A stretch of 64,000 bases of DNA, from contig JAAYUD010000011.1 in the NCBI GenBank assembly GCA_012517855.1, positions 62,001 to 126,000 on the forward strand. The letters are read 5' to 3'. Made by a program: the position numbers and the translations under genes. The stretch's first letter is position 1; every line of letters begins with the position of its first letter. Source of the stretch: Bacteroidales bacterium (lineage in GTDB: Bacteria > Bacteroidota > Bacteroidia > Bacteroidales > Bacteroidaceae). Below are positions 6,609 to 48,376 of this stretch, piece after piece. A model generated the notes under the pieces. It ran no database searches. It worked only from the letters and a program-made list of their open reading frames with translations, and had not been told where the DNA came from.

Positions 6609-6703
6609 ATATCTTTCTTCTCGTTGTCTATCGAATTTGCTACAAAAATACAACTAATTTCATAAAAAATTCTCTTTCCTTCTTGTAGAATTAAAAACAT
6701 TTG

Positions 6704-6711
6704 TACCTATG
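6704..6711 (+). promoter_or_regulatory. Degraded -7 element of the tRNA-Ser duplicate
   Basis: TACCTATG lies 37 bp before the tRNA-like sequence. The intact tRNA-Ser at 7894 has TACCTTTG at almost the same distance, so this is a one-base variant of the Bacteroides TAnnTTTG element. Weak evidence of reduced promoter function. Confidence 0.4.
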
Positions 6712-6748
6712 CACGCTTTAAAAGAAAAGGACTCTTTAAAAAGAGTCC

Positions 6749-6831
6749 GGAGAGGTGGCTGAGTGGTCGATAGCGGCGGTCTTGAAAACCGTTGTGCCTT
6801 AAGGTCCCTCGGGTTCGGATTCCTCTCTCCA
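6749..6831 (+). pseudogene. Decayed duplicate of tRNA-Ser(UGA)
   Basis: The first 47 bases are identical to the intact tRNA-Ser at 7894, including the anticodon loop CTTGAAA. The 3' half has diverged: the variable arm no longer forms the clean GTACC/GGTAC hairpin, the T loop is TTCGGAT instead of TTCGAAT (the invariant A58 is replaced), only about three of five T-stem pairs can form, and the discriminator base is A where serine tRNAs normally have G. About 45 bp upstream is also shared with the intact copy. I infer a tandem duplication with the first copy decaying. A tRNA finder might still score it as a weak tRNA-Ser. Confidence 0.7.
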
Positions 6832-6914
6832 CAAAATAGAATATTGGGAGTTCAAGATTCTATTTCTTTTTGTCGCTATTATTGTTCTTTTACAATAATC
6901 AATACTGTTGATCT

Positions 6915-7526: not shown

Positions 7527-7893
7527 AACTATCTATCCTCTTTCGTTTGCTTTAATACCTGTTCGTCTCGGTTATGACTGCTATTCTTTCAGCGCTCGTA
7601 TCTTTCAGTGATTATGTTCGTACTCAATCATTGCTGGAGAATGTTTCATAACAGTACCATCTTTCACAAAAGTACAAAAGATGCGATGAAAAGCAATCCT
7701 TTTGTCTGCTTTGCGTGGTATATTTAATATTCTTTCTTTGTATTCAGAACCATTATTAATCATTGAAATAGCTTGGTGAAAATTAGAAATAGACTTTTTT
7801 CTTCAAAAAAATGCATTTGGAATTAGGAATATTCAAAAATAAAATATTACCTTTGCAACGCTTTAAGAGAAAAGCACTCCCTAAAAAGAGTTC
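7527..7893. other. Intergenic region upstream of tRNA-Ser
   Basis: Between the LUD gene start and the tRNA. It carries the promoter -7 element TACCTTTG at 7848-7855 for the tRNA; I see no convincing TTTG at the right distance upstream. Nothing else stands out. Confidence 0.5.
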
Positions 7894-7978
7894 GGAGAGG
7901 TGGCTGAGTGGTCGATAGCGGCGGTCTTGAAAACCGTTGTACCGCAAGGTACCCGGGGTTCGAATCCCTGTCTCTCCG
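7894..7978 (+). tRNA. tRNA-Ser(UGA)
   Basis: Acceptor stem GGAGAGG pairs with TCTCTCC, the discriminator is G, the anticodon loop is CTTGAAA (anticodon TGA), the long variable arm forms GTACC-GCAA-GGTAC, and the T arm has TTCGAAT with five pairs. This is a complete class II tRNA. CCA is not encoded. It is followed by a hairpin terminator and, 156 bp on, by a copy of its own last 15 bases. Confidence 0.93.
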
Positions 7979-27986: not shown

Positions 27987-28000
27987 TGTCTTTGTATATA

Positions 28001-29263: not shown

Positions 29264-29269
29264 TGTTCT

Positions 29270-31163: not shown

Positions 31164-32273
31164 ATGAATAGAAAAGTTCTTTCGCTATTTCTGCTTATAT
31201 TGTTTGTATCGGTTCCTTTCTGTTGGGGGAAGTCTGGTGATAAGCGTATCAAATTGGATAATCCCGATTCTTGGACATTAGTTTTCATACCCGATATTCA
31301 GAATTATTCAAAATATACCCGTAATCAACCTATTTTGGACTTGATGTTGGCTTGGATAGAAAGTCACATAGATTCGTTACATATTAAGTTGGTGATGTGC
31401 CCCGGTGACTTGGTGGAGTATAACGATTGGATCGTGAATAATAACGACGGTAATGTTCCGTCAAATGATCAATGGAAGTTTGTAGCGCGTGCTTTTGATC
31501 GGTTGAACGGGAAAGTTCCCTATATTCTTGCTACCGGTAATCACGATTATTCTTATACCTTGGACGGTAAAAAGGCGTTCTCGCAATATCGCCATTATAT
31601 AACTTCTAATCGCAATGTGCTTAATCAGAGATATTTGCGCCAGACTGCACCGGATTGTGAAGGCTATATGACAATGGAAAATGCTGCTTTTGAAATGAAG
31701 ATGCCCGATCAGAAAAATTATCTTTTTCTTTCGCTGGAGTATGCCCCTAGAGATACTGTAATGAGATGGGCTAACAATGTGGTAAAGTTGCCCGAATACA
31801 AGGATGATCGGATAGTGCTTCTTACTCATTCTTATATTAGAGCGAACAATGAATATGTAACCGGCAAACAAGGTATGATTTCTCCTTCTTATGTTTCTGA
31901 TAATATTTTTAGAAGAGCCGGAGTCGGTTTGGAAGATGGAAATTCGGGCAAGGATATTTGGGAAAAGCTGGTGAGGCCTAATAATATAGAGCTAGTGCTT
32001 TGTGGTCATATCATGGGAAAAGGATTCAGGCAAGATAAAAATATTTCGGGTCAAAATGTATATCAAATGCTCTTTGATGCGCAATCGGAAGGAGGAGGGC
32101 ATCGGAATGGTAATGGAGGAGATGGATGGCTCCGTGTATTAGAATTTTTTCCTGATGGAAAGACAGTGAAAGTGAAAACCTTTTCGCCACTGTTTGATTG
32201 TTCACCTTCTACCAGGCATTTGTCTACCAGAACTGACAAAGAGAATGAATTTACTTTTGTCTTTGATAAATAG
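31164..32273 (+). CDS. Secreted calcineurin-like metallophosphoesterase
   Basis: Hydrolyses a phosphoester outside the cytoplasm. The start MNRKVLSLFLLILFVSVPFCWG gives a Sec signal; the frame's earlier ATG at 31119 is in leader sequence. Metal-binding blocks in order: FIPDIQNY (D-x-Q in place of the usual D-x-H), CPGDLVEYND, ATGNHDYSY, LLTHSYI and LCGHIMGKG. Length is 369 residues. It opens the plus-strand cluster that leads to susCD, though a 1.2-kb repeat-bearing gap separates it from the next gene. Substrate unknown; phosphodiesters are plausible from the neighbours. Confidence 0.85.
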   Translation: MNRKVLSLFLLILFVSVPFCWGKSGDKRIKLDNPDSWTLVFIPDIQNYSKYTRNQPILDLMLAWIESHIDSLHIKLVMCPGDLVEYNDWIVNNNDGNVPSNDQWKFVARAFDRLNGKVPYILATGNHDYSYTLDGKKAFSQYRHYITSNRNVLNQRYLRQTAPDCEGYMTMENAAFEMKMPDQKNYLFLSLEYAPRDTVMRWANNVVKLPEYKDDRIVLLTHSYIRANNEYVTGKQGMISPSYVSDNIFRRAGVGLEDGNSGKDIWEKLVRPNNIELVLCGHIMGKGFRQDKNISGQNVYQMLFDAQSEGGGHRNGNGGDGWLRVLEFFPDGKTVKVKTFSPLFDCSPSTRHLSTRTDKENEFTFVFDK

Positions 32274-33443
32274 AAAGAGTGGCTTTGTTTTTAACTATTT
32301 CTCAATATAATTCTTTCTCCTTATTATTATAAATGCAATGCCTTGAGTTTGTATTTATAAGATACTTTTCTTATCCTAACGTAAGTGGTATGTCCCTGTA
32401 GAATGCTATTTTGGTTCTAATAAATTGTTTTATTCGCCTTATTTTTTTTATTGTGAATAAAAGTTACAAAATAGAGATGTTTTATTTTGAGGGAGTTTTT
32501 TTAGGCAAATTCCAGAAAAGACGTAAATCTGTCCCTTTTTAGCTTTTTATGCAATATCATCATTCATACAAATTTAATATATCCGTATCAAATAGATTTC
32601 GAATCAACAGTTTGATGAGCCATTTGGAAAAAGAGTAAAGCAGTATTTTTTAGAGAGGAAACGGCAAATTTCAAAAAAGTACAAAAAAACTCCTTTTCCC
32701 GAAAATCGCAGCTACAATATATTATGACTTCGAAAATCGACATACCCCTGCCGAACATGCCGAACTACTTTCCACTCCTTTATATTTTTTTTATTTTTAA
32801 TTTTTTTGTATAGTATATTTACTTGTTCTATATATCTTTTTGATATTGGTATAAAATGTCGAATAAAAAAAATTCAGAACTCCCTATATATAGTTCGGCA
32901 TGTTCGGCACTTTTGGTAAAATAGGACAACACAAAACAGTTTCGCTTGTCTCGCAGATAATCCATACTTCGCCCCATTCACGTATGTATGTTCTTTTGTT
33001 GTCGTATGTACGTCATGCGAAAAACATAAGGACGTCACCGAAAAAACTAACATACGACAATTTTAGGATATACTACAAGTTCAAATGTCTTATGTGTATG
33101 ATATCATATTAAGATATAGAAGGTTGCTATTAAGAAAAGAATGTAATATGTGTATACATTAAAAATGAAGGGATAATGTCTTTGGCAAAAGTGGCTGGTC
33201 TTAAGTGATTTATAAAGTGAATCTAGTCTATATAATCGGCTGTGACTTTTACTTTTTTATTTTGTTTCAAAACGGTTTCAAAACGATAACATGTTAATTA
33301 AATCTGCTATTTATGAAAAAAAACATCACGAAATGAAAAATATTTCTTTTTTTACTTGGCGTTTCGTTATATTTGTCTTATAATTGCAAAAAAATTAAAG
33401 ACTGTGCTTTAAAATCTAATATTTTGTTTCAAAATCTTATTAT
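32274..33443. other. Long intergenic region with dispersed repeat copy B
   Basis: About 1.2 kb without a credible gene. Repeat copy B occupies 32490-33065. A promoter-like TATATTTG lies at 33368-33375, 69 bp before the next gene, without a clear TTTG upstream. Confidence 0.5.
32490..33065 (+). repeat. Dispersed repeat, copy B, with a perfect 18-bp inverted pair
   Basis: Matches the reverse complement of copy A (12374-12900) in order, from AAAGACGTAAATCTG through GGCAAATTTCAAAAAAG to GCACTTTTGGTAA and ACAACACAAAAC, then a decayed piece of the small ORF (DVTEKTNI) near 33040. TGCCGAACATGCCGAACT at 32749-32766 recurs inverted at 32892-32909, 125 bp away; each arm is itself two 9-bp direct repeats. 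A second inverted pair, TTGTCGTATGT and ACATACGACAA, brackets 32998-33063. Confidence 0.65.
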
Positions 33444-35435
33444 ATGGAAATGAGAAATTCCTTTTTGAGAAATGATAACCTCTATGCTCCGTCGAGAAAA
33501 GTTCTGCGGCAGTTTTTGGTTATTGTGTTGTGTCTTGGCTTTGGGTTATCTTGTGCAAGTTGCAAAGATGATGATAATACCGCCAAGATTGAGACGCTTG
33601 GCATTACAGGTGTGTCGATTCCTAATCCGCTTTCGGTGGAAAGCGGAACTGTCGTTACTTTATCTGGGAAGGGTGTTGCCGTAGGTGACAAGCTGATGTT
33701 CAAATCTACCGATGGAGTCGAATACGCTACTACGGTAAGCTCTGTTACAGACTCTTCTTGGTCGTTTACTTTGCCTTCCGACTTTTCTACCGGAACTTAT
33801 TATTTTTACTTGACCCGTGGTAATGTTAAAGTAAGCCTTTCAAAAGTCGCTATTCAGATTACTGTTAATCTTTCCATTCCAGACAAAGACGGAATGACTG
33901 TTAAGGGGGTTGTCTATTGTAATGGGGAAGGTATAAAAGGGGTTGAAGTCTCGGATGGCATAGAAGTGACGCAAACGGATGCAAATGGCATTTATTATCT
34001 TCCTTCAAAGAAAAAATACGGATATGTATTTATTTCGATTCCTAGTGGTTATGAAGTGACTAATGATGGAAATGCACCGTTGTTCTATGCTCGGGTGAAT
34101 AGTGCTTCTCCAACAACTGTAGAACAAGCAGATTTCTCTTTAAGGAAAGTTGATAATCAGAAACATGCTGTTTTAGCTTTGACCGATTTCCATTTGGCCA
34201 ATCGTAATGATGATGTTTCGCAATTTAGGGCTTTTGTTAAAGACGTAAATAGTACCATATCAGATTTATCGACTGCTGGTTATCGTGTATATGTAATGAG
34301 TATGGGAGATGAAAGTTGGGATGCTTATTGGTATGCTAATAGCTATGCTCTTCCTGATTCGTATGTAGAAATGCAGGGATTGAATGCTACCACTTTCCAT
34401 TGTATGGGCAATCATGACAATGATCCTTATTGTCCTGATGATTGGCTGGCCGAGGCTGCTTGGCGTCGTGTGTGCGGTCCTGTTTATTATTCGTTTAATA
34501 TAGGTAAGGTTCATTACATTGTTTTGGACAATATACAATATTTGAATACAGGCGCTAATCAAGGTACTATAGGTGAACGCAATTACAATAAAGTGCTTAT
34601 TAATGAAGAAATTGAATGGCTGAAGAAAGATTTAGCTCTTATTTCTGACAAAAATACTCCTGTTGTTGTTGGCATGCATGCTCCTTTGTATGAGCGGCCT
34701 TCTCTTTCGGGGCAAAGTCAAGTTGATACGTATGATATGACAGGTGGTGCTAATTTTGTTAGCTATTTTAGTGGCTTCTCTAATGTGCAAGTTCTGACGG
34801 GGCATACTCATGTCAATTATAATGTTTCTAAAGAAAGCAATCTGATGGAGCATAATACAGCAGCCGTTTGTGCTACTTGGTGGTGGACAAACAAATTGGT
34901 GAAAAACCATATCTGTTGTGATGGAACTCCTGGTGGTTATGGCGTTTACAATTTTAGCGGAGATAATTTAGCTTGGTATTATAAGAGTTATGGATATACA
35001 AAAGATTATCAATTCAGAGCATACGATTTGAATACAACTTATATTGATCCTAGTGTGTACGCTCCTAATTATGTGTCTGATATGGCGGCATACGCTCATG
35101 AATATGCTACGCCTAGTACAGCCAATGAGGTTTTGATTAATGTATGGAACTATGATCTTCAATGGAAAGTTGAAGTTTCTGAAAATGGCACATCGTTGCC
35201 AGTTACGCGAGTTTGTACATACGACCCGTTGCATATTATATCTTACGATGCCGCACGCATCAAGACGGGGGGAGCAAGTGCTGTAAGTTTCCCAAGCGAA
35301 CCGACTGCACATCTTTTTAAAGTCAAAGCTTCGAGTGCTACTTCTTCTTTAGTAATAAAGGTTACCGATAGATTTGGAAACACTTATTCCGAGACGATGA
35401 CCCGTCCAAAAGCTTTCAATTATAGTATGAAATAG
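33444..35435 (+). CDS. Calcineurin-like phosphoesterase lipoprotein with N- and C-terminal beta domains
   Basis: Surface or periplasmic phosphoesterase of 663 residues. A membrane signal ends in a cysteine-rich SCASCKDD segment near residue 38, consistent with a lipoprotein. Residues 50-135 form an IPT/TIG-like domain (ITGVSIPNPLSVESGTVVTL), then a MetallophosN-type domain (GMTVKGVVYCNGEGIKGVEV). The catalytic domain shows LALTDFHLANR, MSMGDESWD, CMGNHDNDP, VGMHAPLY and LTGHTHVNY. The last 150 residues fit the calcineurin C-terminal domain. It is 23 bp upstream of susC and so belongs to the uptake operon. Confidence 0.87.
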   Translation: MEMRNSFLRNDNLYAPSRKVLRQFLVIVLCLGFGLSCASCKDDDNTAKIETLGITGVSIPNPLSVESGTVVTLSGKGVAVGDKLMFKSTDGVEYATTVSSVTDSSWSFTLPSDFSTGTYYFYLTRGNVKVSLSKVAIQITVNLSIPDKDGMTVKGVVYCNGEGIKGVEVSDGIEVTQTDANGIYYLPSKKKYGYVFISIPSGYEVTNDGNAPLFYARVNSASPTTVEQADFSLRKVDNQKHAVLALTDFHLANRNDDVSQFRAFVKDVNSTISDLSTAGYRVYVMSMGDESWDAYWYANSYALPDSYVEMQGLNATTFHCMGNHDNDPYCPDDWLAEAAWRRVCGPVYYSFNIGKVHYIVLDNIQYLNTGANQGTIGERNYNKVLINEEIEWLKKDLALISDKNTPVVVGMHAPLYERPSLSGQSQVDTYDMTGGANFVSYFSGFSNVQVLTGHTHVNYNVSKESNLMEHNTAAVCATWWWTNKLVKNHICCDGTPGGYGVYNFSGDNLAWYYKSYGYTKDYQFRAYDLNTTYIDPSVYAPNYVSDMAAYAHEYATPSTANEVLINVWNYDLQWKVEVSENGTSLPVTRVCTYDPLHIISYDAARIKTGGASAVSFPSEPTAHLFKVKASSATSSLVIKVTDRFGNTYSETMTRPKAFNYSMK

Positions 35436-35458
35436 TTAACTTTAATAACAATAATGCG

Positions 35459-38400
35459 ATGAATTTAAAACAGAATACAAAGTGTTTGGCTTTTGTGATA
35501 GCTCTTCTGCTTTCTATCACATCGTTGACGGCACAGACAGTTACTGTCACAGGTACGGTCTTTGAACAAGACGGTACTACTGGAATGATTGGCGTCAATG
35601 TGTTGCAAAAAGGCATGGCAAAGGGCGTAATAACTGATTTAGATGGTAAATTTACTCTTCGTGTAACAGGTGCCAATCCTATTCTAATCTTTAGATCTGT
35701 TGGTTATGATACACAAGAAATACCGCTTAATGGACGTCGTATACTAAAGGTGACAATGGTTGAATCGACAACAGCTTTGCAAGGTGTTGTTGTGACGGCA
35801 CTGGGTATCTCCCGTAAAGAAAAGTCTTTAGGCTATTCGGTAGCAAAGGTCGATAATACCGCTTTAACGAATACGGTTTCCGGAAATTGGATGAATGCAA
35901 TGGCAGGTAAAGTTGCCGGCTTGACATTTGATAATGCTTCTACGGGTCCTATGAGTTCAATGCGTGTGACACTTCGTGGTGATCAGTCTTTGAATTATGG
36001 AAATAACGGTGCTCTCTTTGTGGTTGATGGCGTCCCAATAACGTCAGGAACCACTTCTGTTGGTAGTGGTAGTAATTATGCCAATAGTGATGGACCTGTT
36101 GATTTTGGTAACGGAGCTGGTGATGTTAATCCTGAAGATGTAGAATCGGTTACTGTTCTGAAAGGTGCTGCGGCGACAGCTTTATATGGTTCGTTGGCAG
36201 GTAACGGAGCGATTGTGATTACTACTAAATCCGGTCGTAAAGACAAAGGGGTTGGTGTAACAGTCAATTCTTCTTTAACTATTGAACAGTCTAGCTATTG
36301 GCCTAGTTTTCAAAAGGAATATGGTGCAGGCTCTGATATGGGATTAAATCCTTTTTGTTTTTGGCCTTTGGATGCAACTGAAGCTCCGGATGGTATAGCA
36401 ACTCAGAGAAATATTTCGCGCTATGCTTTTGGTGAGAAGTTTGATGCCTCAAAACTTCGCTATCAATATGCTTCAAAGAATTGGGATAATAATACATACA
36501 CCAAATTACCTTGGTTATATAAGGATGATTGGTATAAAGGTCTTTTCCAGACTGGTATCACCTGGAATAATTCGGTGACAGTATCAGGAGGAAACGGTAA
36601 AGGAACCAGTGCTCGCGCATCTATTACAGATACTCGTAACAATTGGATTGTACCTAATACCGGTTATCAAAGCGATGCTATTTCATTAGCCTTCGATACG
36701 GAACTGAATAAATCCATGAAATTGAGTTCTCGCGTGAACTTTATTCATAAAGGAAGTGATAATCTGCCTGTAAGTGGATATAGTGCACAGAGCCCAATGT
36801 ACTCATTGGTATGGGGCTATAATAACAATAGTATAAAAGATTGGAAGAACGAATATTTTAACGGCCGTTTCAATGCCGAGAATTACAATAATGCAGACGG
36901 TACACATGGCAAAAGTTTGGTATATCCTGCAGATGAATCTTATAATCCATATCGTACGGCATACGAGGAAATAAATAAATTGGATAAGAATCGTGTATAT
37001 GGTAATGTACAATTAAATATCCAGCTTGCTAAAGATTGGAATTTAAACTTGCGTACGGCCATGGATATGTCAGATGAGTGGCGTTCTCAGCAGAAACCTT
37101 TTTATACCTCGGGTTCCGTATCCGGATTCTACCGTGAACAAAGTATGAGAACATATGAATTCAATTCTGATTTCTTGCTCAGGTATACTCATAATGATTG
37201 GTTTGATAAACGTTTTGGATTTACCGCTGCTTTTGGTGGAAATAATATGCAGTCTAAGTATTTTCAGAATGAAGTGACATTGTCACAATTGGATAATCCA
37301 GGTGTATATAATATTTATAATTTACCTTCAGGAGACAAACCAGGGGTTGATAATTATAGGAGTAAGAAAATTATAAATAGCTTTTATGGTTTAGCCTCAT
37401 TGAGCTGGGATGATACTTATTTCTTGGATTTGACCGGTCGTAACGATTGGTCGAGTACTTTGGGTAAGAGCAATCGGTCTTATTTCTATCCGTCTGTTTG
37501 TGGTAGTGTGTTGCTTGATAAAGTCTTTCGTTTTGATAGAATAGCATCTTGGATCGATTTTCTAAAATATCGTTTGTCGTGGGCAAATGTTGGTAACGAT
37601 ACTTCTCCTTATTCATTGGATCGTTATTATAATCCTTCAGATCCATATTCTGGTGGTTATACAATGTCTGGAACTATTCCAAATCCAGACATCAAACCCG
37701 AGAATGTGCAAAGTTGGGAAACCGGTTTGGAAGGAAAGTTGTTTAAAAATCGTTTTTCATTCGATTTTACAGTATATCATTCTTCTACAACAGATCAGAT
37801 TGTTACTATTGATATGGATCAGATAACTGGAGCTACCGGTTATAAAATAAATGCCGGTAAAATAGTCAATAAGGGTGTTGAAATATCAGCTTCTGTAACT
37901 CCTATAAAGAATCGAAACTTTACATGGAATATAGATATGAACTGGTCTAAAAACTGGAATAAATTAGTTGACTTACAAAAAGGATGGGATCCTGCTCAAC
38001 CTTTTCAGACGGATATGGGTACTACCATTGGAAGTCGTGTCTTTATATATTCTTATTTAGGGCAAGAGATGAATCAAATTTATGGTCGTGGATACCAACG
38101 TGCTCCAGAGGGATCTTATTATACGGATCAGAATGGAAATAAAGTTGATTGTTCGGGCATGAAATTGATTAATGCGAATGGTTATCCAATTCTTGATACT
38201 AATCCAACTCGCCATATTGGTCGTGTAAACCCTGAATGGCGTGCAGGTTTGAGTACACGTCTTGTTTATAAAAATGTATCACTCTCTCTTGTCTTTACAG
38301 GACAATATGGAGGTCATTGTTATTCTGTTACGAATTTCTCATTATCTTATCAAGGGAAATTGAGAAATTCATTGAAAGGACGTTATGACGGTCTGGTCGT

Positions 38401-38782
38401 TGACGGAGTACAAGCTACAGTCGTGAACGGACAAGCTGTTTATGCAAAGAATACGACTGTAACGCCTAGTATTCAGGAATATTACAATTCTTATGTATGG
38501 AATCGTAATAATGCAGAAGAAAATACGTTCAATACTTCTTATCTAAAATTGAAAGAATTGCGTTTTGATTATCAAATACCGAAGAGTTGGTGCGCTAAAA
38601 CAAAAGTGCTACAAACGGCAGGCTTAGGATTCTTTGCTACAAATTTATTTTGCTTGACCAGTTTTCCGCAGTATGATCCAGATACCGGTATGGTCGATGG
38701 TTCTAGTATACACCGAGGTATTGAGGCAATGGCATATCCAATGACTCGTTCGTATGGTTTTAATGTTAAACTTTCATTTTAG
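35459..38782 (+). CDS. SusC-like TonB-dependent outer-membrane transporter
   Basis: Outer-membrane beta-barrel of 1,107 residues that imports oligomeric substrates with its SusD lid. After a signal peptide ending SLTAQ comes a CarboxypepD_reg-like domain (TVTGTVFEQDGTTGMIGVNV), then the plug with QGVVVTALGISRKEKSLGYS and VLKGAAATALYGSLAGNGAI. The C terminus ends in aromatic FNVKLSF as barrels do. It follows a phosphoesterase gene and precedes susD by 6 bp. The substrate is set by context; no glycoside hydrolase is in this cluster. Confidence 0.95.
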   Translation: MNLKQNTKCLAFVIALLLSITSLTAQTVTVTGTVFEQDGTTGMIGVNVLQKGMAKGVITDLDGKFTLRVTGANPILIFRSVGYDTQEIPLNGRRILKVTMVESTTALQGVVVTALGISRKEKSLGYSVAKVDNTALTNTVSGNWMNAMAGKVAGLTFDNASTGPMSSMRVTLRGDQSLNYGNNGALFVVDGVPITSGTTSVGSGSNYANSDGPVDFGNGAGDVNPEDVESVTVLKGAAATALYGSLAGNGAIVITTKSGRKDKGVGVTVNSSLTIEQSSYWPSFQKEYGAGSDMGLNPFCFWPLDATEAPDGIATQRNISRYAFGEKFDASKLRYQYASKNWDNNTYTKLPWLYKDDWYKGLFQTGITWNNSVTVSGGNGKGTSARASITDTRNNWIVPNTGYQSDAISLAFDTELNKSMKLSSRVNFIHKGSDNLPVSGYSAQSPMYSLVWGYNNNSIKDWKNEYFNGRFNAENYNNADGTHGKSLVYPADESYNPYRTAYEEINKLDKNRVYGNVQLNIQLAKDWNLNLRTAMDMSDEWRSQQKPFYTSGSVSGFYREQSMRTYEFNSDFLLRYTHNDWFDKRFGFTAAFGGNNMQSKYFQNEVTLSQLDNPGVYNIYNLPSGDKPGVDNYRSKKIINSFYGLASLSWDDTYFLDLTGRNDWSSTLGKSNRSYFYPSVCGSVLLDKVFRFDRIASWIDFLKYRLSWANVGNDTSPYSLDRYYNPSDPYSGGYTMSGTIPNPDIKPENVQSWETGLEGKLFKNRFSFDFTVYHSSTTDQIVTIDMDQITGATGYKINAGKIVNKGVEISASVTPIKNRNFTWNIDMNWSKNWNKLVDLQKGWDPAQPFQTDMGTTIGSRVFIYSYLGQEMNQIYGRGYQRAPEGSYYTDQNGNKVDCSGMKLINANGYPILDTNPTRHIGRVNPEWRAGLSTRLVYKNVSLSLVFTGQYGGHCYSVTNFSLSYQGKLRNSLKGRYDGLVVDGVQATVVNGQAVYAKNTTVTPSIQEYYNSYVWNRNNAEENTFNTSYLKLKELRFDYQIPKSWCAKTKVLQTAGLGFFATNLFCLTSFPQYDPDTGMVDGSSIHRGIEAMAYPMTRSYGFNVKLSF

Positions 38783-38788
38783 CACAAT

Positions 38789-40378
38789 ATGAAAATCTAT
38801 AATAAAATATTAATTGTTGCACTGTTGATAATGGGACTGAGTGCATGTACCGATCATTTTGAGTCGGCTAACACGAACCCTAACAAAATAACTGTTGGAG
38901 ATAATTCCCTCGAATGTACTTCAATGTATGAACCATTGCTTTATGGTGGTGCTAATTTTTTTAGTTACTATTCTTGGTTTTGGAATGATGAACTTATTCA
39001 GTTTACAGCTTTTACAGGGGGGGGGACGCGTCAAGAACATCGTTATTTTATAGCTGATAATAATTGGCAAGCTGTATGGAACACTTATTCACGCTATGCA
39101 TCCAATGATGTTCATATGTATAATCTTGCTGTTGCACAGCAAAATGAAGCTATGCAGGCTGTTGCTTTAACTATGAAAGTGCTTTTTTTAGAAAATCTGA
39201 CAGATATGTATGGCGATATTCCTTATTCAGAGGCTTTTCAAATAGATAAAGGAATTAATAAACCAATATTTGATTCTCAAGAGAGTGTTTATCAACAAAT
39301 GTGCGCAGAATTGGAGAAAGCGAATGAAATATATGCTACCAACCCTTATGTTAATCCTAAAAAAATATCTTTGGATGGTATGTATAAATTTGATATGGCA
39401 AAATGGCGTAAGTTTAATAATTCTTTATATCTTCGTTTATTATGTCGCATTAGTGGACGTTCTTCGACAATTGTTGACGGGAAAAATACAGTAGTCCAAA
39501 AGATGCAGCAAATTGTATCTAATCCTACAAATTATCCTATTTTTACTTCCAATACTGATAATGCTACGGTAAAGTATACAGGTATTTCTCCATATTATAG
39601 TCAATTTGATCCAAAACAATATACGGAAAGTGCATTCACATCAAGTGGCTATAAGCTGACAGAACAATTGATAAAAATGACTGTGATTAATGATGCTACT
39701 GGAAATGAAGTATACGAAGATCCGCGTTTGCCGATTTATGGAAAGAAAGCCAATAAATTTACCTATTGGAAAGGCACTATTGCCGGTTGCAATGTTTCCG
39801 AACAGAGTGCTGCAGACTTAGGAGCTTCTTATTTGAATTATGAAGTATTTTGTAGGAATAATTCAGATGAATGGTTTATAGATTATGCAGAAGTGCAATT
39901 TATTTTGGCCGAAGCTGCTTTGAAGGGGTATATTTCGGGAGGAGAATCGGCTGCAAAGGTATATTATGAAGCTGCTATAAGAGCGTCAATGCAGAAATGG
40001 TCTGCTATGGGAGCTTACAGTAAAATACCATGTTCTATTACAGATGACAATATAAGTACATTCTTATCTTCCGATTTGGCAGCGTGGGATAAACATGATA
40101 ATAAAGAAGAACTTATAGCTAATCAAAAATATTTAGCCTTATTTATGACTGGAATGGAGACTTATCATGAATATCGCCGTACCGGATATCCGACGCTGAC
40201 AATTGGTAAGGGGACTGTTTATAATGACAATATTTTGCCTACTCGTTTTGCTTATCCTAATACTACAATGGCAACAAATTCTAATAATGCAAAAGCAGCG
40301 TTAGCACGTATGGGAGGTGATAATGATATGAAAACTCCTGTATGGTGGAGTAAACAAGCCATTGAAGCGGGTAAATAG
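38789..40378 (+). CDS. SusD-like outer-membrane lipoprotein
   Basis: Substrate-binding lid of the SusC channel, 529 residues, with lipobox LSACTD (cysteine 20). Helical TPR-like segments such as QAVALTMKVLFLENLTDMYGDIPYSEAF identify the SusD/RagB fold of the SusD_2 branch; AEVQFILAEAALKGYISGG is the typical late helix. Residues 77-79 are glycines encoded by nine consecutive G (39017-39025), an unusual run for this AT-rich gene and a possible slippage site. Confidence 0.93.
   Translation: MKIYNKILIVALLIMGLSACTDHFESANTNPNKITVGDNSLECTSMYEPLLYGGANFFSYYSWFWNDELIQFTAFTGGGTRQEHRYFIADNNWQAVWNTYSRYASNDVHMYNLAVAQQNEAMQAVALTMKVLFLENLTDMYGDIPYSEAFQIDKGINKPIFDSQESVYQQMCAELEKANEIYATNPYVNPKKISLDGMYKFDMAKWRKFNNSLYLRLLCRISGRSSTIVDGKNTVVQKMQQIVSNPTNYPIFTSNTDNATVKYTGISPYYSQFDPKQYTESAFTSSGYKLTEQLIKMTVINDATGNEVYEDPRLPIYGKKANKFTYWKGTIAGCNVSEQSAADLGASYLNYEVFCRNNSDEWFIDYAEVQFILAEAALKGYISGGESAAKVYYEAAIRASMQKWSAMGAYSKIPCSITDDNISTFLSSDLAAWDKHDNKEELIANQKYLALFMTGMETYHEYRRTGYPTLTIGKGTVYNDNILPTRFAYPNTTMATNSNNAKAALARMGGDNDMKTPVWWSKQAIEAGK
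39017..39025 (+). repeat. Nine-G tract inside susD
   Basis: GGG GGG GGG encodes Gly77-79. GGG is a rare glycine codon in the surrounding genes. A gain or loss of one base would truncate SusD early. Confidence 0.9.
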
Positions 40379-40393
40379 TAACTATTTCAAAAA

Positions 40394-41680
40394 ATGAATA
40401 AGATGAACAATATATTTCAGAAAAGAAATTCGAACCTATTGACTCTCGTCATGTCTACCTTGTTTATCATGTCGATGACGTCTTGTTCGAGTGATAAATA
40501 TAATGAAGATCCTTATTTTTATATTGAGGATCAAATGACAGCTGTCACTGCAGATGCAAGTGGTATTTTACAAACAAATATGAAGGCTTATACTATTCGT
40601 TCCAATAGACCGTGGACAATTACCCAAGAGAAGGCGGCTGATTGGCTTCATGTATTTGCCGATGAAGGTGAAGATGATGGGATATTTGATATATGGATAG
40701 ATAAAAATCCTAATTTCACTTCTCGTACAGGAAATTTGATTTTTAAGGTTGATGGTCAAGAACAACCGGTTATGTTTCGTGTAGATCAGAAAGCTGATGT
40801 CCCTGGAGTTACTATTGTTAATGCTGCTGCTGGGTATACCGTGCTTGGCAGGGGTACGATATTGAAAGTGCCTGTTACTAATAATGTCAAGTGGGAGGCG
40901 TCCTTATCTGCAAGTGATTGGGCTGCTATAGATTCAGTAGGGAAAGATACTGTTTATATAAAGACTCAAATTAATGATACCAACGATCCACGTTGTGTGA
41001 CGCTAAAAGTTGTTGGAACAGGAAGTTACTCCTCTTTGTCTTCTCAAACAATAATAACTCAATCTACTGTTGGCATCATTATAAATGAACACTTTGATTG
41101 GATGCAAGAAGGTGTTGTCGACTCTTTGTACAATTATCCTGAAGTTAATAGTACTAATTGGTCTACTGTTGAAAAAAATTATGGGTGGACAACATTAGGA
41201 GCTTCTATGTATGGAGGTCGTGGCTATTTGAAAGTAGGCAAAACAAACTATGGTGGTGATTTAGTTTCTCCTGTTTTTTCTAGTATTGAAGGTACAAAAG
41301 ATTTAATTGTAACATTCAAGTCTATTGGCTATATCTCAGTAGGTGGTACTAAAGATGATGGAGTCCTCAATATCGCAATTGCCGGTGATGGTTTTATTAG
41401 TGATCATAGTACAAAGAATATGAAAATCAATAATAAAGATTATAACGTTGCGACTTTTAATATTAGTGTTTATCCTAATTCTAAAAATCAGGAAAATGGA
41501 GCAGCTTATGATGCTTGGGGACAACCTGGAGCTAAGTTCTCATTTAAAATTAAAGGGGCAACAGCGAAAACTCAAATTATTTTTGTCGGTGGCTCAGCTT
41601 GGGGAGATGCCTTGAAGAATATAGGTCAAAGCAAAAATCGTTGTTACTTTGATGATATTCTTGTGAAGCTTGATGAATAG
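40394..41680 (+). CDS. BACON-domain surface lipoprotein, putative substrate-binding protein
   Basis: Lipoprotein of 428 residues (lipobox MTSCSS). Residues 60-135 form a BACON domain (YTIRSNRPWTITQEKAADWL ... RTGNLIFKVDGQEQPVMFRV), residues 140-220 a second BACON-like repeat, and residues 230-428 a jelly-roll-like domain beginning IINEHFDWM. Genes in this position after susD usually encode surface binding proteins that help capture the substrate. It starts 15 bp after susD. Confidence 0.75.
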   Translation: MNKMNNIFQKRNSNLLTLVMSTLFIMSMTSCSSDKYNEDPYFYIEDQMTAVTADASGILQTNMKAYTIRSNRPWTITQEKAADWLHVFADEGEDDGIFDIWIDKNPNFTSRTGNLIFKVDGQEQPVMFRVDQKADVPGVTIVNAAAGYTVLGRGTILKVPVTNNVKWEASLSASDWAAIDSVGKDTVYIKTQINDTNDPRCVTLKVVGTGSYSSLSSQTIITQSTVGIIINEHFDWMQEGVVDSLYNYPEVNSTNWSTVEKNYGWTTLGASMYGGRGYLKVGKTNYGGDLVSPVFSSIEGTKDLIVTFKSIGYISVGGTKDDGVLNIAIAGDGFISDHSTKNMKINNKDYNVATFNISVYPNSKNQENGAAYDAWGQPGAKFSFKIKGATAKTQIIFVGGSAWGDALKNIGQSKNRCYFDDILVKLDE

Positions 41681-41793
41681 ACGTTTATAAAGTTATAATC
41701 AATATCAGTCGTGAGTTGTACATAGACGGTGTATCATTTATTTGGTATATCGAATATGTACAACTTTTATAAAAAAGGAGAATAAAAATTCTA

Positions 41794-42699
41794 ATGAATT
41801 TAAAGAGAAACATACTTGTTGCATTGCTTTTGTTGTGTGTCGGCATAATGGTTCATGCACAACATTTAGGTAGCGATTATCGATTGAAGCGAATTATTCC
41901 GGTAATCGGTCGACAGGGAATTGCTATTGATGAACACTCTTATTATGTCTCGGATAGTAAAGCGCTGTATAAGTATGATAAAAATGGGATTCTTCTTACT
42001 GCTAATAAAAATCCTTTTATCGAATTTAAATTGAGTGCCAATCATATAGGAGATATTGATGTTTGGAATGGAGAACTGTATGCAGGTGTGGAGTGGTTTG
42101 AAGATGGTCATGCTAAGAATATACAGATTGCAGTGTTCGATGCCAATTCATTACAATTTAAGCGTGTTGTTCAGTGGAATGTAGCATCGGGTCAGGCAGA
42201 AGTTTCGGGTATTGCTATTGATAAAAAACGAAAGATGGTGTGGATGTCCGATTGGAGTGATAGTCGTTATGTTTATTGTTATAGCTTGGAAACAGGAACG
42301 TATTATACTAAAATGCAGTGTCGTCCTACTCCATATTGGTGTCAAGGCTTATTTATCGCTGATAATATGATGTTGTTCAGTGCCGATGACGGTGACTCGA
42401 CTTTTCAAATACCTGATTGTATCTATTGTGCCGACATTAGTTATGTGCCATATTCGGGCGTAAAAGAAGGTCATGCAGCAGGTGCTATAGCGGGCAAGTT
42501 AAATCTTTTTAGAGAAATGAACGATTTTGTACGCACTGGAGAAATAGAAGGATTATCTATTGATCCTGTAAATGATGATTTGGTCGTTCTTAATAATCGT
42601 GGGCTTCAAATTGTAAACGGAATGCCTAAGGAGCCTTATAAAGAAGAGGGTTATAGTAGCGAAATACATGAATTATATATTTACGAAAAATTAAAATAG
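41794..42699 (+). CDS. Secreted beta-propeller protein
   Basis: Protein of 301 residues with signal peptide ending MVHAQ. Repeating strands such as QGIAIDEHSYYVSDSKALYK, SGIAIDKKRKMVWMSDWSD and IEGLSIDPVNDDLVVLNNR suggest a six-bladed propeller of the NHL or phytase-like esterase type. No catalytic residues can be assigned with confidence. It may bind or process the substrate imported by the locus. Confidence 0.6.
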   Translation: MNLKRNILVALLLLCVGIMVHAQHLGSDYRLKRIIPVIGRQGIAIDEHSYYVSDSKALYKYDKNGILLTANKNPFIEFKLSANHIGDIDVWNGELYAGVEWFEDGHAKNIQIAVFDANSLQFKRVVQWNVASGQAEVSGIAIDKKRKMVWMSDWSDSRYVYCYSLETGTYYTKMQCRPTPYWCQGLFIADNMMLFSADDGDSTFQIPDCIYCADISYVPYSGVKEGHAAGAIAGKLNLFREMNDFVRTGEIEGLSIDPVNDDLVVLNNRGLQIVNGMPKEPYKEEGYSSEIHELYIYEKLK

Positions 42700-42765
42700 A
42701 AAATAATTTATTGCCGATGGATATGATTATCTTTACCGACCATCAGCATATTAAAAAAAGAGAAT

Positions 42766-44115
42766 ATGTTTAGAAATTTATTGAATTTTTACAAAACATC
42801 ATCACCGGCTGTAGGTGTTGACCCTTCTTTATTAACAGAAAAACGCTTCAAAAGTTTAAGGTGGAAAACGTTTTTGGCGTTTACTTTTGGCTATACTATG
42901 TTTTATATATGCCGCTTGAGTCTAAATGTGATGAAAGGACCTATTGTCAAAGAGGGTATTTTTTCTGAAACAGAATTAGGTATCATAGGGTCTGCTTTAT
43001 TTTTTACATATGCTATCGGTAAATTCGCAAATGGCTTTTTGGCTGACCATTGTAATATCCGCAAGTTCTTATCGACAGGACTTTTTGTTACGGCAGCAGT
43101 CAATTTGTCTTTGGGATATGTCCATTCTTTTGTTTTCTTTGCTGTATTGTGGGGAGTTAGTGGTTGGTTTCAATCTATTGGTGCACCGTCTTGTGTCGTA
43201 GAGTTATCTCGTTGGTATAACGAAAAAGAGCGAGGAACATTTTATGGCATTTGGATTATAAGTCATAATTTGGGAGAGGGTTTAACTTGGATATTATCTA
43301 CTTTTATTGTAGCAGCATTAGGGTGGCGTTTTGGCTTTCTGTGTTCCGGTCTTCTTGGAATGTTGGGAGTGTTGATTATTTGGAAATTTGTTCATGATAC
43401 TCCTGAAAGCGAGGGATTCCCTTCTGTTAATCCTCCTAAAGTACAGAAAAATGCTTCTTCGGAAGAAGTTTCGGATATAAAAAGGGCACAAATTGCCGTT
43501 TTGAAAAATCCTGCCATCTGGGTTCTTGCTATATCCAGTGCTTTTATGTATTTTTGTCGGTATGCTATTAATAGTTGGGGTATCTTTTTCCTGCAGAACC
43601 AAAAGGGATACAGCTTGAAAGAAGCTGGTATGATATTGTCTATTAATTCGATTTTTGGTATAATAGGAACAGGTTGCTCTGGATTTATCTCTGATAAGAT
43701 GTTTGGAGGAGGCCGTAATATACCGGCGCTGATTGCGGGAGTTCTTGATATTATTGCATTGATGCTCTTTTTGTTGGTTCCGGGACACAATTTGTGGATT
43801 GATTCTCTTGCTATGGTTATGTTTGGAACTGGTATCGGTGTTTTGATTTGTTTCCTTGGTGGATTAATGGCTGTTGATATTGCTCCAAGCAATGCATCTG
43901 GAGCTGCTCTGGGAGTTATTGGAATTGCCAGCTACGTAGGTGCCGGTATTCAAGATATTCTTAGTGGTGTGTTGATACAGGGGAACAAACACATGATAAA
44001 TGGTACAGCACATTATGACTTTACAGCGATTTCTTGGTGCTGGATTGGTGCTGCTATCCTTTCTACTCTTGTTGCTACTTTTGTATGGAATGTTACGGGG
44101 AAAAGACAAAGTTAA
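42766..44115 (+). CDS. MFS organophosphate:phosphate antiporter (GlpT/UhpT family)
   Basis: Inner-membrane transporter of 449 residues with 12 predicted helices. The two phosphate-binding arginines of the family are in place: R50 in FYICRLSLNV and R265 in MYFCRYAINSWG, equivalent to R45 and R269 of E. coli GlpT. The family exchanges sugar phosphates or glycerol-3-phosphate for phosphate. Presence inside a Sus-type cluster suggests that the released periplasmic product is a phosphate monoester that is taken up intact. Exact substrate not provable here. Confidence 0.85.
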   Translation: MFRNLLNFYKTSSPAVGVDPSLLTEKRFKSLRWKTFLAFTFGYTMFYICRLSLNVMKGPIVKEGIFSETELGIIGSALFFTYAIGKFANGFLADHCNIRKFLSTGLFVTAAVNLSLGYVHSFVFFAVLWGVSGWFQSIGAPSCVVELSRWYNEKERGTFYGIWIISHNLGEGLTWILSTFIVAALGWRFGFLCSGLLGMLGVLIIWKFVHDTPESEGFPSVNPPKVQKNASSEEVSDIKRAQIAVLKNPAIWVLAISSAFMYFCRYAINSWGIFFLQNQKGYSLKEAGMILSINSIFGIIGTGCSGFISDKMFGGGRNIPALIAGVLDIIALMLFLLVPGHNLWIDSLAMVMFGTGIGVLICFLGGLMAVDIAPSNASGAALGVIGIASYVGAGIQDILSGVLIQGNKHMINGTAHYDFTAISWCWIGAAILSTLVATFVWNVTGKRQS

Positions 44116-44139
44116 ATTACAATTAATAATAAAAATACA

Positions 44140-44904
44140 ATGTTGAGTATAGCTGAAAGACATAAGTTTATTTTGGATTCGCTAAAGAAATTCGGTTTTG
44201 TGAAGGTTAATGATATTGCTGTGCAATTGGATGTGACACCTGCTACTATACGAAATGACTTGAAAAGTCTTGAAGCGAAGAAACTTTTATATCGTACTCA
44301 TGGGAGTGCAAGTCCTATCAATCCGATTGCTATTGATACGCAAGTAGAGGTGAAAGAAAAAATTCATATTGAAGAAAAGAAAAGAATTGCGGCTCGAGCC
44401 TGTGAATTGATTGAAGAAAATGATTCTATTATTATTGGATCGGGCTCTACCATTTATACTTTTGCAGAACAAATTCCTTCTTCACTTAAGTTGACAGCAG
44501 TGACTACGTCTCCTAAAATATCGATATTGTTGAATAAATCACCTAATATTGAGGTCGTGCAATTAGGAGGTACGCTTCGAAAGAATTCTTTTTCTGTAAT
44601 AGGAGAATATACGAACTATTTTTTTAATGATATTACATGTTCTAAGCTTTTCCTTGGGGTTGATGGTATTGATTTGGAATATGGCATTACTAATTCTAAT
44701 ATGGAAGAAGCTATGCTTAATAAACGGATGATTGATTCTTCTTTGCGTACCATTATATTGGCCGATTCCTCTAAGTTTGGGCGTCGGGGATTTGGTAGAG
44801 TATGTAGTTTGGATAAGATCGATGTGATTATTACCGATTCGGGAATTCCGGAAGTAATGGCTAAGTCTATCGAAGAGATTGGAATCGAACTTATTATTGT
44901 CTAA
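44140..44904 (+). CDS. DeoR-family transcriptional regulator
   Basis: DNA-binding protein of 254 residues. The N-terminal helix-turn-helix is GFVKVNDIAVQLDVTPATIRNDLKSLEAKKLLYRTHGSA; the C-terminal sensor fold shows IIGSGSTIYTFAEQ and KLFLGVDGIDLEYG. DeoR sensors normally bind phosphorylated sugars or polyols, which fits the neighbouring phosphate antiporter. It lies 24 bp after that gene and probably regulates the cluster. Confidence 0.9.
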   Translation: MLSIAERHKFILDSLKKFGFVKVNDIAVQLDVTPATIRNDLKSLEAKKLLYRTHGSASPINPIAIDTQVEVKEKIHIEEKKRIAARACELIEENDSIIIGSGSTIYTFAEQIPSSLKLTAVTTSPKISILLNKSPNIEVVQLGGTLRKNSFSVIGEYTNYFFNDITCSKLFLGVDGIDLEYGITNSNMEEAMLNKRMIDSSLRTIILADSSKFGRRGFGRVCSLDKIDVIITDSGIPEVMAKSIEEIGIELIIV

Positions 44905-44924
44905 AATTGATCCCTTTATTGTAT

Positions 44925-46004
44925 ATGAAGCGAATAACTGTGTTATTATGTGTTATTGTCGGTTTATCTGATTTGTTGTTGGCACAAACGTCAAATATGC
45001 GTTATATCGATGCCAAGGATCTTAATTTAATTGGAAAAATAACACCTACTCCTCAATTGTATCATCGTGTGGATACTGCACGATATAGAGATTTTACACC
45101 TAATCAGAATATTCTAGTAACTGAAGCTGCCGGATTGGCTTTGTGTTTTAAGACTAATAGTAGTCGTATATCTGTTCATACTTATTTCCATTCAATGGGT
45201 AATGGCGCTAATATGACAGGTATCAATCAGTATGGGTATGATTTGTATATTAAGAAAAATAAAGAGTGGCTTTATGCTGCTTCGAAAGCAAAATTAGAGA
45301 AGGATAATTTGCTACCGTTGATTAGCAATATGGATACGTCTCAAAAAGAATGCTTGTTGTATTTACCTGCTTTTAGTGTAATTGATTCCATTAAAATAGG
45401 TATTGATGAACAAGCGGATATTGAATCTTTGCCTAATCCTTTTCGCCATCGCATTATTATTTTCGGCTCTAGTTTCACTCATGGTACTTCGGCCAATCGC
45501 TCTGGAATGAGTTACCCATTGATGGTAGAGCGTGATACTGGTCTATATATAATGAATTTGGGCGTTAGTGGAAACTCCAAATTGCAACAATCTTTTGCTC
45601 GTGTATTGGCTGATGCTGATGCCGACGTTTTTATCTTCGATGCTTTTTCTAATCCTTCGGCAAAAGAGATAGAAGAACGATTTGATTCGTTTGTTAAGAC
45701 TATTAGGGCTTCTCATCCTACAACTCCTCTTATTTTCATGCAGACTATTTATCGTGAAGAACGCAATTTTGATAAGCGTGCCGATCGTTATGAGCAAGAT
45801 AAGATGGATATGGCAGAGAAGATAGTGAAGAAAGCTATGCAATACGATAAAAATATTTATTTTATAAATCCTAAAAATTATACGGGAGATGACCACGTTA
45901 CTTCTACAGATGGTATTCATCCCTCGGCACTAGGGTATTATCGATGGGCTAAAACGATAGAACCTTTGTTATTAACAATTTTGAAAAAGTATCATATAGA
46001 GTAA
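44925..46004 (+). CDS. Secreted SGNH/GDSL-like hydrolase
   Basis: Esterase-type enzyme of 359 residues; the start MKRITVLLCVIVGLSDLLLAQ gives a signal peptide. An N-terminal jelly-roll domain is followed by the hydrolase: FGSSFTHGTS (nucleophile serine, block I), GVSGNSKLQ (block II) and STDGIHPSALGYYRWA (block V, Asp and His). It lies 20 bp after the regulator. In this locus it could remove acyl or acetyl ester groups from the phosphorylated substrate. Confidence 0.85.
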   Translation: MKRITVLLCVIVGLSDLLLAQTSNMRYIDAKDLNLIGKITPTPQLYHRVDTARYRDFTPNQNILVTEAAGLALCFKTNSSRISVHTYFHSMGNGANMTGINQYGYDLYIKKNKEWLYAASKAKLEKDNLLPLISNMDTSQKECLLYLPAFSVIDSIKIGIDEQADIESLPNPFRHRIIIFGSSFTHGTSANRSGMSYPLMVERDTGLYIMNLGVSGNSKLQQSFARVLADADADVFIFDAFSNPSAKEIEERFDSFVKTIRASHPTTPLIFMQTIYREERNFDKRADRYEQDKMDMAEKIVKKAMQYDKNIYFINPKNYTGDDHVTSTDGIHPSALGYYRWAKTIEPLLLTILKKYHIE

Positions 46005-46117
46005 TTGATTTGATAATAGTATATTAGTTTTTGTCAGGTGTGAGACTATCATTCATTTTTTTTCTCCCGCCTGAATAAGTTTTACTACCGCAAAAAGGCG
46101 GATGGATAATAGATATA

Positions 46118-46978
46118 ATGGTTATAGACAAAAAGCAAATGGTCGTGCAGACCGATAGTGAGCGTGATGCCTTATTAACAAAAATACGTCATATAGCTCT
46201 CGATATGGATGGGACAATTTATAATGGTAATACATTGTTCCCCTTTACAGTTTCTTTTCTGAATAATCTGAAAAAATGGGATATCAGTTATTCTTTTCTT
46301 ACTAATAATCCCACTAAAAGCGCCGAAGATTATGTTAATCATTTATTGGAGATGGGAGTTCCTGCTACGTTGAACGAAATGTATACTTCTGCGCAAGCTA
46401 CTATCGATTACATTAAGCTGCATCATCCTGATTTTAAGAGATTATTTATATTGGGTACTCCCAGTATGATTCATGAATTTGAAAAAGCGGGATTTGTTTC
46501 TACTCGTGAAGATGCTACAGATATTCCGGATGCTGTATTGGTAAGCTTTGATAAATCGCTGATCTATCCTCGACTTTGCCGTGCTGCATGGTGGATCTCT
46601 CAAGGTACACCATATTTTGCTACAAATCCAGATAGAGTTTGCCCAACCGACCAACCCACAGTATTGGTGGATTGTGGCTCTTTGATTAGCTGCTTGGCAT
46701 ATGCAACGGGTCGAAACCCTGATGTTGTAATAGGTAAGCCAGATCCACGTATGCTTTATTGCATAATGGAAAAATTAAATTTAAAACCGGAAGAAGTCGC
46801 GGTCGTAGGGGATCGTATTTATACGGATGTTAAGACGGCTTTAAATGCAGGAAGTCCTGGAATATTAGTTCTCTCTGGAGAAACAACGATGGATATTGTT
46901 CGAGAGTCGGACAGAAAGCCAACTATTATTGCTCGTGATTTGGACGAGCTTGGCTCTTGGTTGTCTTTAGTGCATTAA
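46118..46978 (+). CDS. HAD-IIA phosphatase (NagD/PGP-like)
   Basis: Cytoplasmic phosphatase of 286 residues. Motif I is ALDMDGTIYNG, motif II SFLTNNPTKS, and motifs III and IV appear as VIGKPDPRML and VAVVGDRIYTDVKTALNAG. The IIA cap lies between. Members dephosphorylate phosphoglycolate, glycerol phosphate or nucleotides. As the last gene of the cluster it could dephosphorylate the imported phosphate ester. Confidence 0.85.
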   Translation: MVIDKKQMVVQTDSERDALLTKIRHIALDMDGTIYNGNTLFPFTVSFLNNLKKWDISYSFLTNNPTKSAEDYVNHLLEMGVPATLNEMYTSAQATIDYIKLHHPDFKRLFILGTPSMIHEFEKAGFVSTREDATDIPDAVLVSFDKSLIYPRLCRAAWWISQGTPYFATNPDRVCPTDQPTVLVDCGSLISCLAYATGRNPDVVIGKPDPRMLYCIMEKLNLKPEEVAVVGDRIYTDVKTALNAGSPGILVLSGETTMDIVRESDRKPTIIARDLDELGSWLSLVH

Positions 46979-47032: not shown

Positions 47033-48376
47033 TTAAAGTGAGATAGGAGTACTGTTTGCCATATTATCAATAAGCCTTACAGCCTCTTCTATTCCAATTT
47101 TAGAAGTGTTGATGACAAGATCATAATGCCGTGCATCTGTCCATCTTTCTCCTGTATATTCCCAATAATGGTTTGTCCTTTGTTTATTTGTTTGATTGAT
47201 CATTATTTGGGCTTTTTCTTTGGAGATATGATGTTCTTCTGCGACTCTTTTACTTGCAAAATCCATGTCTGAATAAATGAAGACCTTAAAACAGTTTGGT
47301 CTATCTTTTAGTATCCAATTGGCACAACGTCCAATGATAATACAATCTTCTTGTTCGGCTACTCGTTTTATGGTAGAACTTTGTGATACGAATATGGCAT
47401 CTTCGGTAGATAAATACATCGACTTTGGTACACTCTTGTCGGTTAAAATAAGTTTGAGCAATTGCCCTGTGCTAATATTCTGTTCTTTTTCGCTTACGAA
47501 TTCATAAGTAAGGCCAAGCTCTTTTGCTGTTTCGTCTATGATTTTCTTGTCGTATAATTTGCAGCCAAGTCTTTTTGCTAATTTTTCTCCTACTTCGTGT
47601 CCACCACTTCCGTATTGGCGAGAGATGGTTATTACAAGAGGCTCTTTTGTCTTTTTAAGATGAGGCTCTAGTTGTTCAGATGGTTCTGTATTTGGTATAA
47701 CGATTTTATCGAGCCAATTAATGCAGTGGCTAAACTTGCGTACCATATAACCAACAAAGAAAGTCGAAAACAATGTCCCGATACCAATAAGCTCCCATCT
47801 CCATTGACCAAAGAAAGCCAAGCAAAAGATAATGCCGACTGATACCAAACCGGTATCTGAACATATTTTGACTTTGCCGAAGTCTATATGTGTTACTTTC
47901 GAAATAGTCAGAGGAAAACCTTCGCCTGGCAACAACAGTACATCGCAACGTACTTCGAGTGCAATGCCGTAAGCTAATATAGAACCTCCTATTATAAGTT
48001 GTAACCAGCGTAATGAATATCCTAATACACTGTCGTCAAACTGTATAAAACTTGTAATCCACATCGTCAAATCTGTATATACTCCGAATAACAAGCTAAC
48101 GGCCAATTGTAGAAGTTGTATCTTCTTGAAGTTTTTGCGTAGCATGACTATTTGTGATAAGACGAAGAAGATGTGCATGCAAAACACATAGAAGCCCATG
48201 GAGTATTTTGTATAGGGAATGCGGCTTAATACATAAGGTGGGCAGGATATCGGGGATGAGCCTAAGTTGGCTCGAATAGACAATGAAGTGCCGAATGCAA
48301 TGATAAATAATACGAAAACAAATGCTATATAACGCCTTAATAATTCTTGAAAACTTCTTGTCCTGATATTCTCCAT
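47033..48376 (-). CDS. YitT-like membrane protein fused to a cytidylate kinase-like domain
   Basis: Protein of 447 residues. Residues 1-220 carry about six membrane segments (for example YIAFVFVLFIIAFGTSLSI) of the YitT/YczE kind. Residues 235-447 are a cytidylate-kinase-like P-loop domain: VITISRQYGSGGHEVGEKLA is the nucleotide loop, with CIIIGRCANWILKDRPNCF downstream. The fusion places a nucleotide-binding domain on the cytoplasmic side of a transporter-like core; the function is unknown. The divergent LysR gene may control it. Confidence 0.8.
   Translation of the reverse strand: MENIRTRSFQELLRRYIAFVFVLFIIAFGTSLSIRANLGSSPISCPPYVLSRIPYTKYSMGFYVFCMHIFFVLSQIVMLRKNFKKIQLLQLAVSLLFGVYTDLTMWITSFIQFDDSVLGYSLRWLQLIIGGSILAYGIALEVRCDVLLLPGEGFPLTISKVTHIDFGKVKICSDTGLVSVGIIFCLAFFGQWRWELIGIGTLFSTFFVGYMVRKFSHCINWLDKIVIPNTEPSEQLEPHLKKTKEPLVITISRQYGSGGHEVGEKLAKRLGCKLYDKKIIDETAKELGLTYEFVSEKEQNISTGQLLKLILTDKSVPKSMYLSTEDAIFVSQSSTIKRVAEQEDCIIIGRCANWILKDRPNCFKVFIYSDMDFASKRVAEEHHISKEKAQIMINQTNKQRTNHYWEYTGERWTDARHYDLVINTSKIGIEEAVRLIDNMANSTPISL

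Follow-up and report, generated by a model that had tools for sequence, protein, structure and literature searches.

The locus lies within a window of 64,000 nucleotides, the whole stretch of DNA that was analysed (positions 62,001 to 126,000 of contig JAAYUD010000011.1, assembly GCA_012517855.1), from a Bacteroidales bacterium of the family Bacteroidaceae. The collection contains no other species of the genus to which the source genome (3.64 Mb in 114 contigs, 99.9% complete) belongs, and comparisons were therefore made within the family. All open reading frames of the initial annotation were recovered at their positions (Table 1), and its gene content was borne out by Pfam and NCBIfam, which returned two Metallophos proteins, SusC, SusD-like_2, BACON, an MFS transporter, a DeoR regulator, a GxDLY/Lipase_GDSL_3 SGNH protein, a HAD-IIA phosphatase and GlpA, GlpB and GlpC. 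Nine + strand genes, from the phosphoesterase PE2 to the HAD protein, follow one another with gaps of ~2-113 bp. The adjacent SusC (TIGR04056) and SusD place the block among the SusCD or PUL-type loci, which are usually read as glycan-eating systems. Among the proteins scanned (25.9-50.8 kb), however, no glycoside hydrolase or polysaccharide lyase family was matched, such as would be expected of a glycan PUL. The locus also contains no glycerophosphodiester phosphodiesterase (GDPD, PF03009), the only two of the genome being on contigs C78 and C11.

Table 1. Features of the locus and its surroundings, in window coordinates.
Feature	Position	Strand	Evidence
glpC	26769-27986	-	TIGR03379, 614 bits, over equivalog cut-off
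glpB	28001-29263	-	TIGR03378, 460 bits, over equivalog cut-off
glpA	29270-30895	-	TIGR03377, 801 bits, over equivalog cut-off
glpABC, anaerobic glycerol-3-phosphate dehydrogenase	26769-30895	-	divergent from PE1
PE1, secreted metallophosphoesterase	31164-32273	+	PF00149, 38 bits
Dispersed genomic repeats (most of stretch)	32600-33080	.	46 matches in own genome, itself included
PE2, MetallophosN-Metallophos-MetallophosC lipoprotein	33444-35435	+	PF16371/PF00149/PF16370
SusC-type TonB-dependent transporter	35459-38782	+	TIGR04056, 596.7 bits (cut-off 368)
SusD-type lipoprotein	38789-40378	+	PF12771 (SusD-like_2), 263 bits (cut-off 27); solved SusD homologs
BACON-domain lipoprotein	40394-41680	+	PF13004, 38.9 bits
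Secreted beta-propeller	41794-42699	+	no Pfam match; AlphaFold2 pLDDT 83, beta-propeller matches
OPA-type MFS transporter	42766-44115	+	TIGR00881 best model, below cut-off; R50, K86, H167, R265
DeoR-family regulator	44140-44904	+	PF00455 + PF08220
Secreted SGNH esterase (GxDLY + Lipase_GDSL_3)	44907-46004	+	PF14606/PF14607; PDB 4lhs, 273 bits
Cytoplasmic HAD-IIA phosphatase	46118-46978	+	TIGR01460, 120.3 bits (cut-off 100.15)
DUF6198 membrane domain fused to cytidylate-kinase-like domain	47033-48376	-	

Of the two phosphoesterases initially assigned to the system, only PE2 is retained here. Judged by the DxH and GHxH ligands of calcineurin-like metallophosphoesterases, PE1 carries DxQ instead of DxH and lacks the final His of GHxH; in the alignment of its family DxQ is invariant and the final His mostly missing. 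Its relatives adjoin GH20 or other SusCD genes or lie in varied contexts, with no glp or GDPD genes visible nearby. PE1, whose mechanical ORF begins at 31119 (the start at 31164 is its second ATG), matched no PDB sequence. Between it and PE2 lie 1,170 bp of AT-rich sequence with dispersed repeats, and therefore only the genes from PE2 to HAD form one possible transcription unit. Given the repeat-filled gap, the missing metal ligands and the contexts of its relatives, we rejected membership of PE1 in the system, outside which it probably lies. The repetitive stretch comprises two elements, one of which is ~270 bp long and includes a perfect inverted repeat of 19 nt (32749-32767 / 32891-32909); the other measures ~85 bp. 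Upstream of PE2 the exact Bacteroides promoter consensus was not matched; candidates with one mismatch lie near 33343-33375, a count that was also attained in 39 of 200 shuffles. No Rfam elements were detected in 26-50 kb.

PE2 keeps every ligand expected from the DxH, GD, GNHD, H and GHxH motifs (D248, H250, D289, N323, H412, H454 and H456 in the alignment). Its N-terminal cysteine is followed by KDDDN, an arrangement that we take to resemble the surface-lipoprotein signals of Bacteroidota and that suggests surface exposure, making PE2 a probable cell-surface lipoprotein. It has no sequence match in the PDB, and its structure model (pLDDT 80) matches folds including purple acid phosphatase and 5'-nucleotidase, with low whole-model TM. 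These two matches confirm the catalytic fold only, and do not separate diester from monoester cleavage.

The order PE2-SusC-SusD-BACON recurs in several other loci (L002, L003 and L048-L052), whose proteins are 48-52% (PE2), 53-65% (SusC) and 53-63% (SusD) identical to those described here. BACON orthologs, although only 28-43% identical, occupy the same position in related loci, and SusC-SusD-BACON is kept in L004 and in L001, which lies at a contig start. These four genes are thus a conserved module. A Bacteroidia MAG (L003) encodes, in one same-strand run, a GlpT-like transporter (505 bits with its best model, TIGR00712, but short of the cut-off), a HAD phosphatase, a GDPD, PE2, SusC, SusD and BACON. 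A Prevotellaceae MAG (L004) has SusC-SusD-BACON-GDPD and then homologs of DeoR (45%), glpA (62%) and glpB (39%) and another GlpT-like transporter (540 bits), and in L001 SusD-BACON precedes a GDPD. A distant version (L073 and L141; SusC 35%, SusD 29%) contains a MetallophosN/C enzyme with a GDPD adjoining the phosphoesterase. Most PE2 modules (L002, L048-L052) lack adjacent GDPD or glp genes. Three genomes (G007, G035 and G093) combine the PE2 module with a separate glpABC-GlpT-GDPD-porin operon, which would be suited to small diesters.

The transporter had been described as an OPA-type antiporter with two phosphate-binding arginines, and both the OPA type and the arginines hold: R50 and R265 align with R45 and R269 of GlpT, the two substrate-phosphate-binding arginines by which OPA proteins were recognised, and K86 and H167 correspond to K80 and H165 of GlpT. 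The family cut-off of TIGR00881 was not reached (245.4 vs 407.75 bits), though this was the best-scoring model. Equating the transporter with GlpT itself did not hold up, given a TIGR00712 score of 209.8 bits against a cut-off of 632.55, and the alignment and tree are likewise against it. GlpT residues Y38, Y42, R45, Y76, K80, H165, Y266, R269 and Y393 are retained, but the clade is without GlpT K46, N162, D274 and E299, and the substrate may therefore not be glycerol-3-phosphate. In a 48-row tree the transporter groups with those of GDPD-bearing SusCD loci (100/100 for the set), apart from both true GlpT and a clade tied to glycerol-1-phosphate dehydrogenase (G1PDH), its exact place being unsure because of a long branch. 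Among 19 relatives of the transporter compared with the GDPD family, 17 have a GDPD within 1 kb, in SusCD loci, the two exceptions being the most distant (51-52%). These genomes hold only 2-7 GDPDs, and adjacency by chance would be expected at ~0.003-0.03 per locus; the loci span several genera and are not independent events.

Similar associations surround the regulator and the HAD phosphatase. Relatives of the DeoR protein stand divergent to glpABC-GlpT-GDPD-porin O/P genes (L191, L193 and L194, the L191 transporter exceeding the GlpT cut-off), next to glpABC (L188) or ahead of GDPD-G1PDH-MFS-HAD (L176). Relatives of the HAD protein (56-62%) occur with glpABC, G1PDH and/or OPA transporters in ~12 of 13 readable loci; NF002022 is the best model for the G1PDH near them, below its cut-off, and the nearest solved relatives include PDB 9h4x and 4rgq. 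The source genome itself contains a second, paralogous cluster on contig C11 (L138) of DeoR (62%), G1PDH, MFS and HAD (75%) genes. The G1PDH-like gene of this cluster (15379-16713, - strand) is split by a TAA into ORFs of 293 and 147 aa, and is either a pseudogene or an assembly error. Elsewhere, operons L179-L187 and L176 combine glpABC, G1PDH, a HAD-IIA phosphatase and one or two OPA transporters, L181 additionally encoding a KbaZ-like protein; catabolism of both glycerol-phosphate enantiomers is possible for these.

The two remaining genes are less closely connected to this chemistry. The propeller, proposed at the outset and recognisable by its structure model rather than by Pfam, matches no PDB sequence. 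Its family alignment has many invariant acidic residues and invariant GDIDV, GEIEGL and DDG motifs, which resemble a catalytic or metal-binding site. Foldseek gave generic beta-propellers only (TM ~0.5), and assignment to a known enzyme was rejected. Its glp link is weaker, since only in L134 and L128 does a relative have glp genes nearby. The SGNH esterase is linked to GDPD only through L139 (positions 3442-7933, genome G268), a SusCD locus with two GDPDs, one of which directly adjoins a GH20-SGNH fusion. The L139 enzymes would be suited to GlcNAc- and acyl-decorated glycerol-phosphate polymers.

Some of these features recall an ordinary glycan locus, in which the phosphatases would only strip phosphate decorations (e.g. 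from phosphomannan, a phosphorylated capsule or sugar-phosphate polymers) under an AgaR-like regulator. The best NCBIfam model for the regulator is indeed AgaR, below its cut-off, with no GlpR-type equivalog cut-off passed; the SGNH family includes carbohydrate esterases, and L139 joins an SGNH domain and a GH20 enzyme in one protein. Nevertheless, with no glycoside hydrolase or polysaccharide lyase among the proteins scanned, and with associations that indicate glycerol phosphate and not hexose catabolism, we regard a glycan locus as very improbable.

The PE2-HAD block is a composite. A synteny comparison suggested with the initial annotation recovered the PE2-SusC-SusD-BACON module repeatedly, but the exact gene combination of the locus was found in none of the other genomes compared, where the MFS, HAD and regulator genes travel apart from the SusCD module. 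The two halves could be chance neighbours, the first serving some phosphorylated substrate and the transporter-DeoR-SGNH-HAD cassette serving glycerol phosphates made or obtained elsewhere. They occupy different places outside the locus (in G057 the module and the transporter are on separate contigs), and the 113 bp gaps between BACON and propeller and between SGNH and HAD could house internal promoters, although neither gap contains a match to the Bacteroides consensus with one mismatch or fewer. GDPD adjacency, by contrast, independently ties both halves to the same chemistry, and L003 and L004 unite the SusCD module, a GlpT-like transporter and a GDPD with a phosphatase or regulator. We consider chance neighbourhood quite unlikely.

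No GlpT equivalog exists in the source genome, where the GlpT model matches just two proteins, the transporters of the locus and of L138, so that glpABC is without another obvious GlpT-type feeder. It is plausible that the locus transporter feeds GlpABC.

The SusCD module, transporter, regulator and HAD phosphatase each lie elsewhere near GDPD, glpABC or G1PDH, and the proposal of a glycerol-phosphodiester substrate is therefore well supported by association. We conclude that the PE2-HAD block, together with the adjacent glpABC, is probably a locus of SusCD type that takes up glycerol-phosphate phosphodiesters. PE2 would cut the substrate outside the cell, and SusC and SusD, with the help of BACON, would carry the fragments inwards through the outer membrane. 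The SGNH esterase, and possibly the propeller, may complete trimming in the periplasm. The OPA-type transporter would then import a glycerol-phosphate-type monoester, probably in exchange for phosphate, for oxidation of sn-glycerol-3-phosphate by GlpABC; the HAD-IIA enzyme may remove phosphate from a similar ester. The intermediate may be sensed by the DeoR protein, which would control the genes. This scheme retains the initially proposed route from phosphodiester capture to GlpABC, while the associations do not favour any one of teichoic acid, a decorated glycan or small glycerophosphodiesters.

A more specific possibility, which we put forward tentatively and consider rather unlikely, is that this SusCD locus of a Bacteroidaceae member serves teichoic acid alone. 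Here the surface phosphodiesterase would cut poly(glycerol phosphate) shed by Gram-positive neighbours, the esterase would strip acyl or D-alanyl groups, and both enantiomers would be catabolised: glycerol-3-phosphate via GlpABC, glycerol-1-phosphate via the HAD/G1PDH cluster elsewhere in the genome. A probable surface enzyme with SusCD would make most sense for a polymer, because G007, G035 and G093 also hold their separate porin-GDPD-GlpT-glpABC operon for small diesters.

The glp regulon of E. coli, GlpQ-GlpT-GlpABC-GlpR, offers one parallel to a glycerol-phosphodiester locus. The two share extracytoplasmic phosphodiester cleavage (as proposed for the locus), an OPA antiporter, GlpABC and a DeoR-family regulator, a repressor in E. 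coli. Unlike the regulon, the locus has no GlpQ, uses SusCD, has a transporter of a separate OPA clade and has a regulator below the GlpR-type equivalog cut-off.

The nearest described kind is PusCD (PUS I-IV) of Flavobacterium, in which SusCD is accompanied by phosphodiesterases and/or phosphomonoesterases in place of CAZymes; these loci are induced by phosphate depletion and proposed to scavenge phosphodiesters, and PusD is reported to be polyphyletic (PMC8115612). In both cases SusCD is co-located with such genes, PE2 adjoining SusC and HAD lying downstream. The present locus differs in that its enzyme is a MetallophosN/C lipoprotein, it has its own OPA-type transporter, DeoR and HAD, and it abuts glpABC. 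Its gene logic matches that of PusCD, and it resembles a Bacteroidaceae variant of that kind directed at glycerol phosphate. The combination of SusCD with both phosphoesterase types and no CAZymes (PMC8115612) would also accommodate phosphorus scavenging induced by phosphate starvation, with phosphate and not carbon as the gain and many phosphoesters as substrates. This overlaps with our preferred explanation in mechanism and differs in purpose and control. We judge it unlikely, as the presence of glpABC and of a DeoR-type regulator suggests that carbon is used under the control of metabolites. In the expression table of PMC10434189, B. thetaiotaomicron BT4724-BT4725 (SusCD) appear with the GDPD BT4727, resembling by gene content the SusCD-GDPD loci of transporter relatives (L053-type). 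For a link in Bacteroides between SusD and teichoic acid or glycerophosphodiester, the open-access literature yielded no described system besides PusCD.

Loci of this type could be sought through the PE2-SusC-SusD-BACON order, or through the OPA transporter clade of the locus together with a GDPD. If our interpretation is correct, a glycerol-phosphate-diester locus would extend the Flavobacterium PusCD idea to gut-type Bacteroidaceae. It would link capture at the outer membrane with a pathway dedicated to glycerol phosphate, and would suggest that these bacteria feed on the head groups of phospholipids or on teichoic acids of Gram-positive bacteria.
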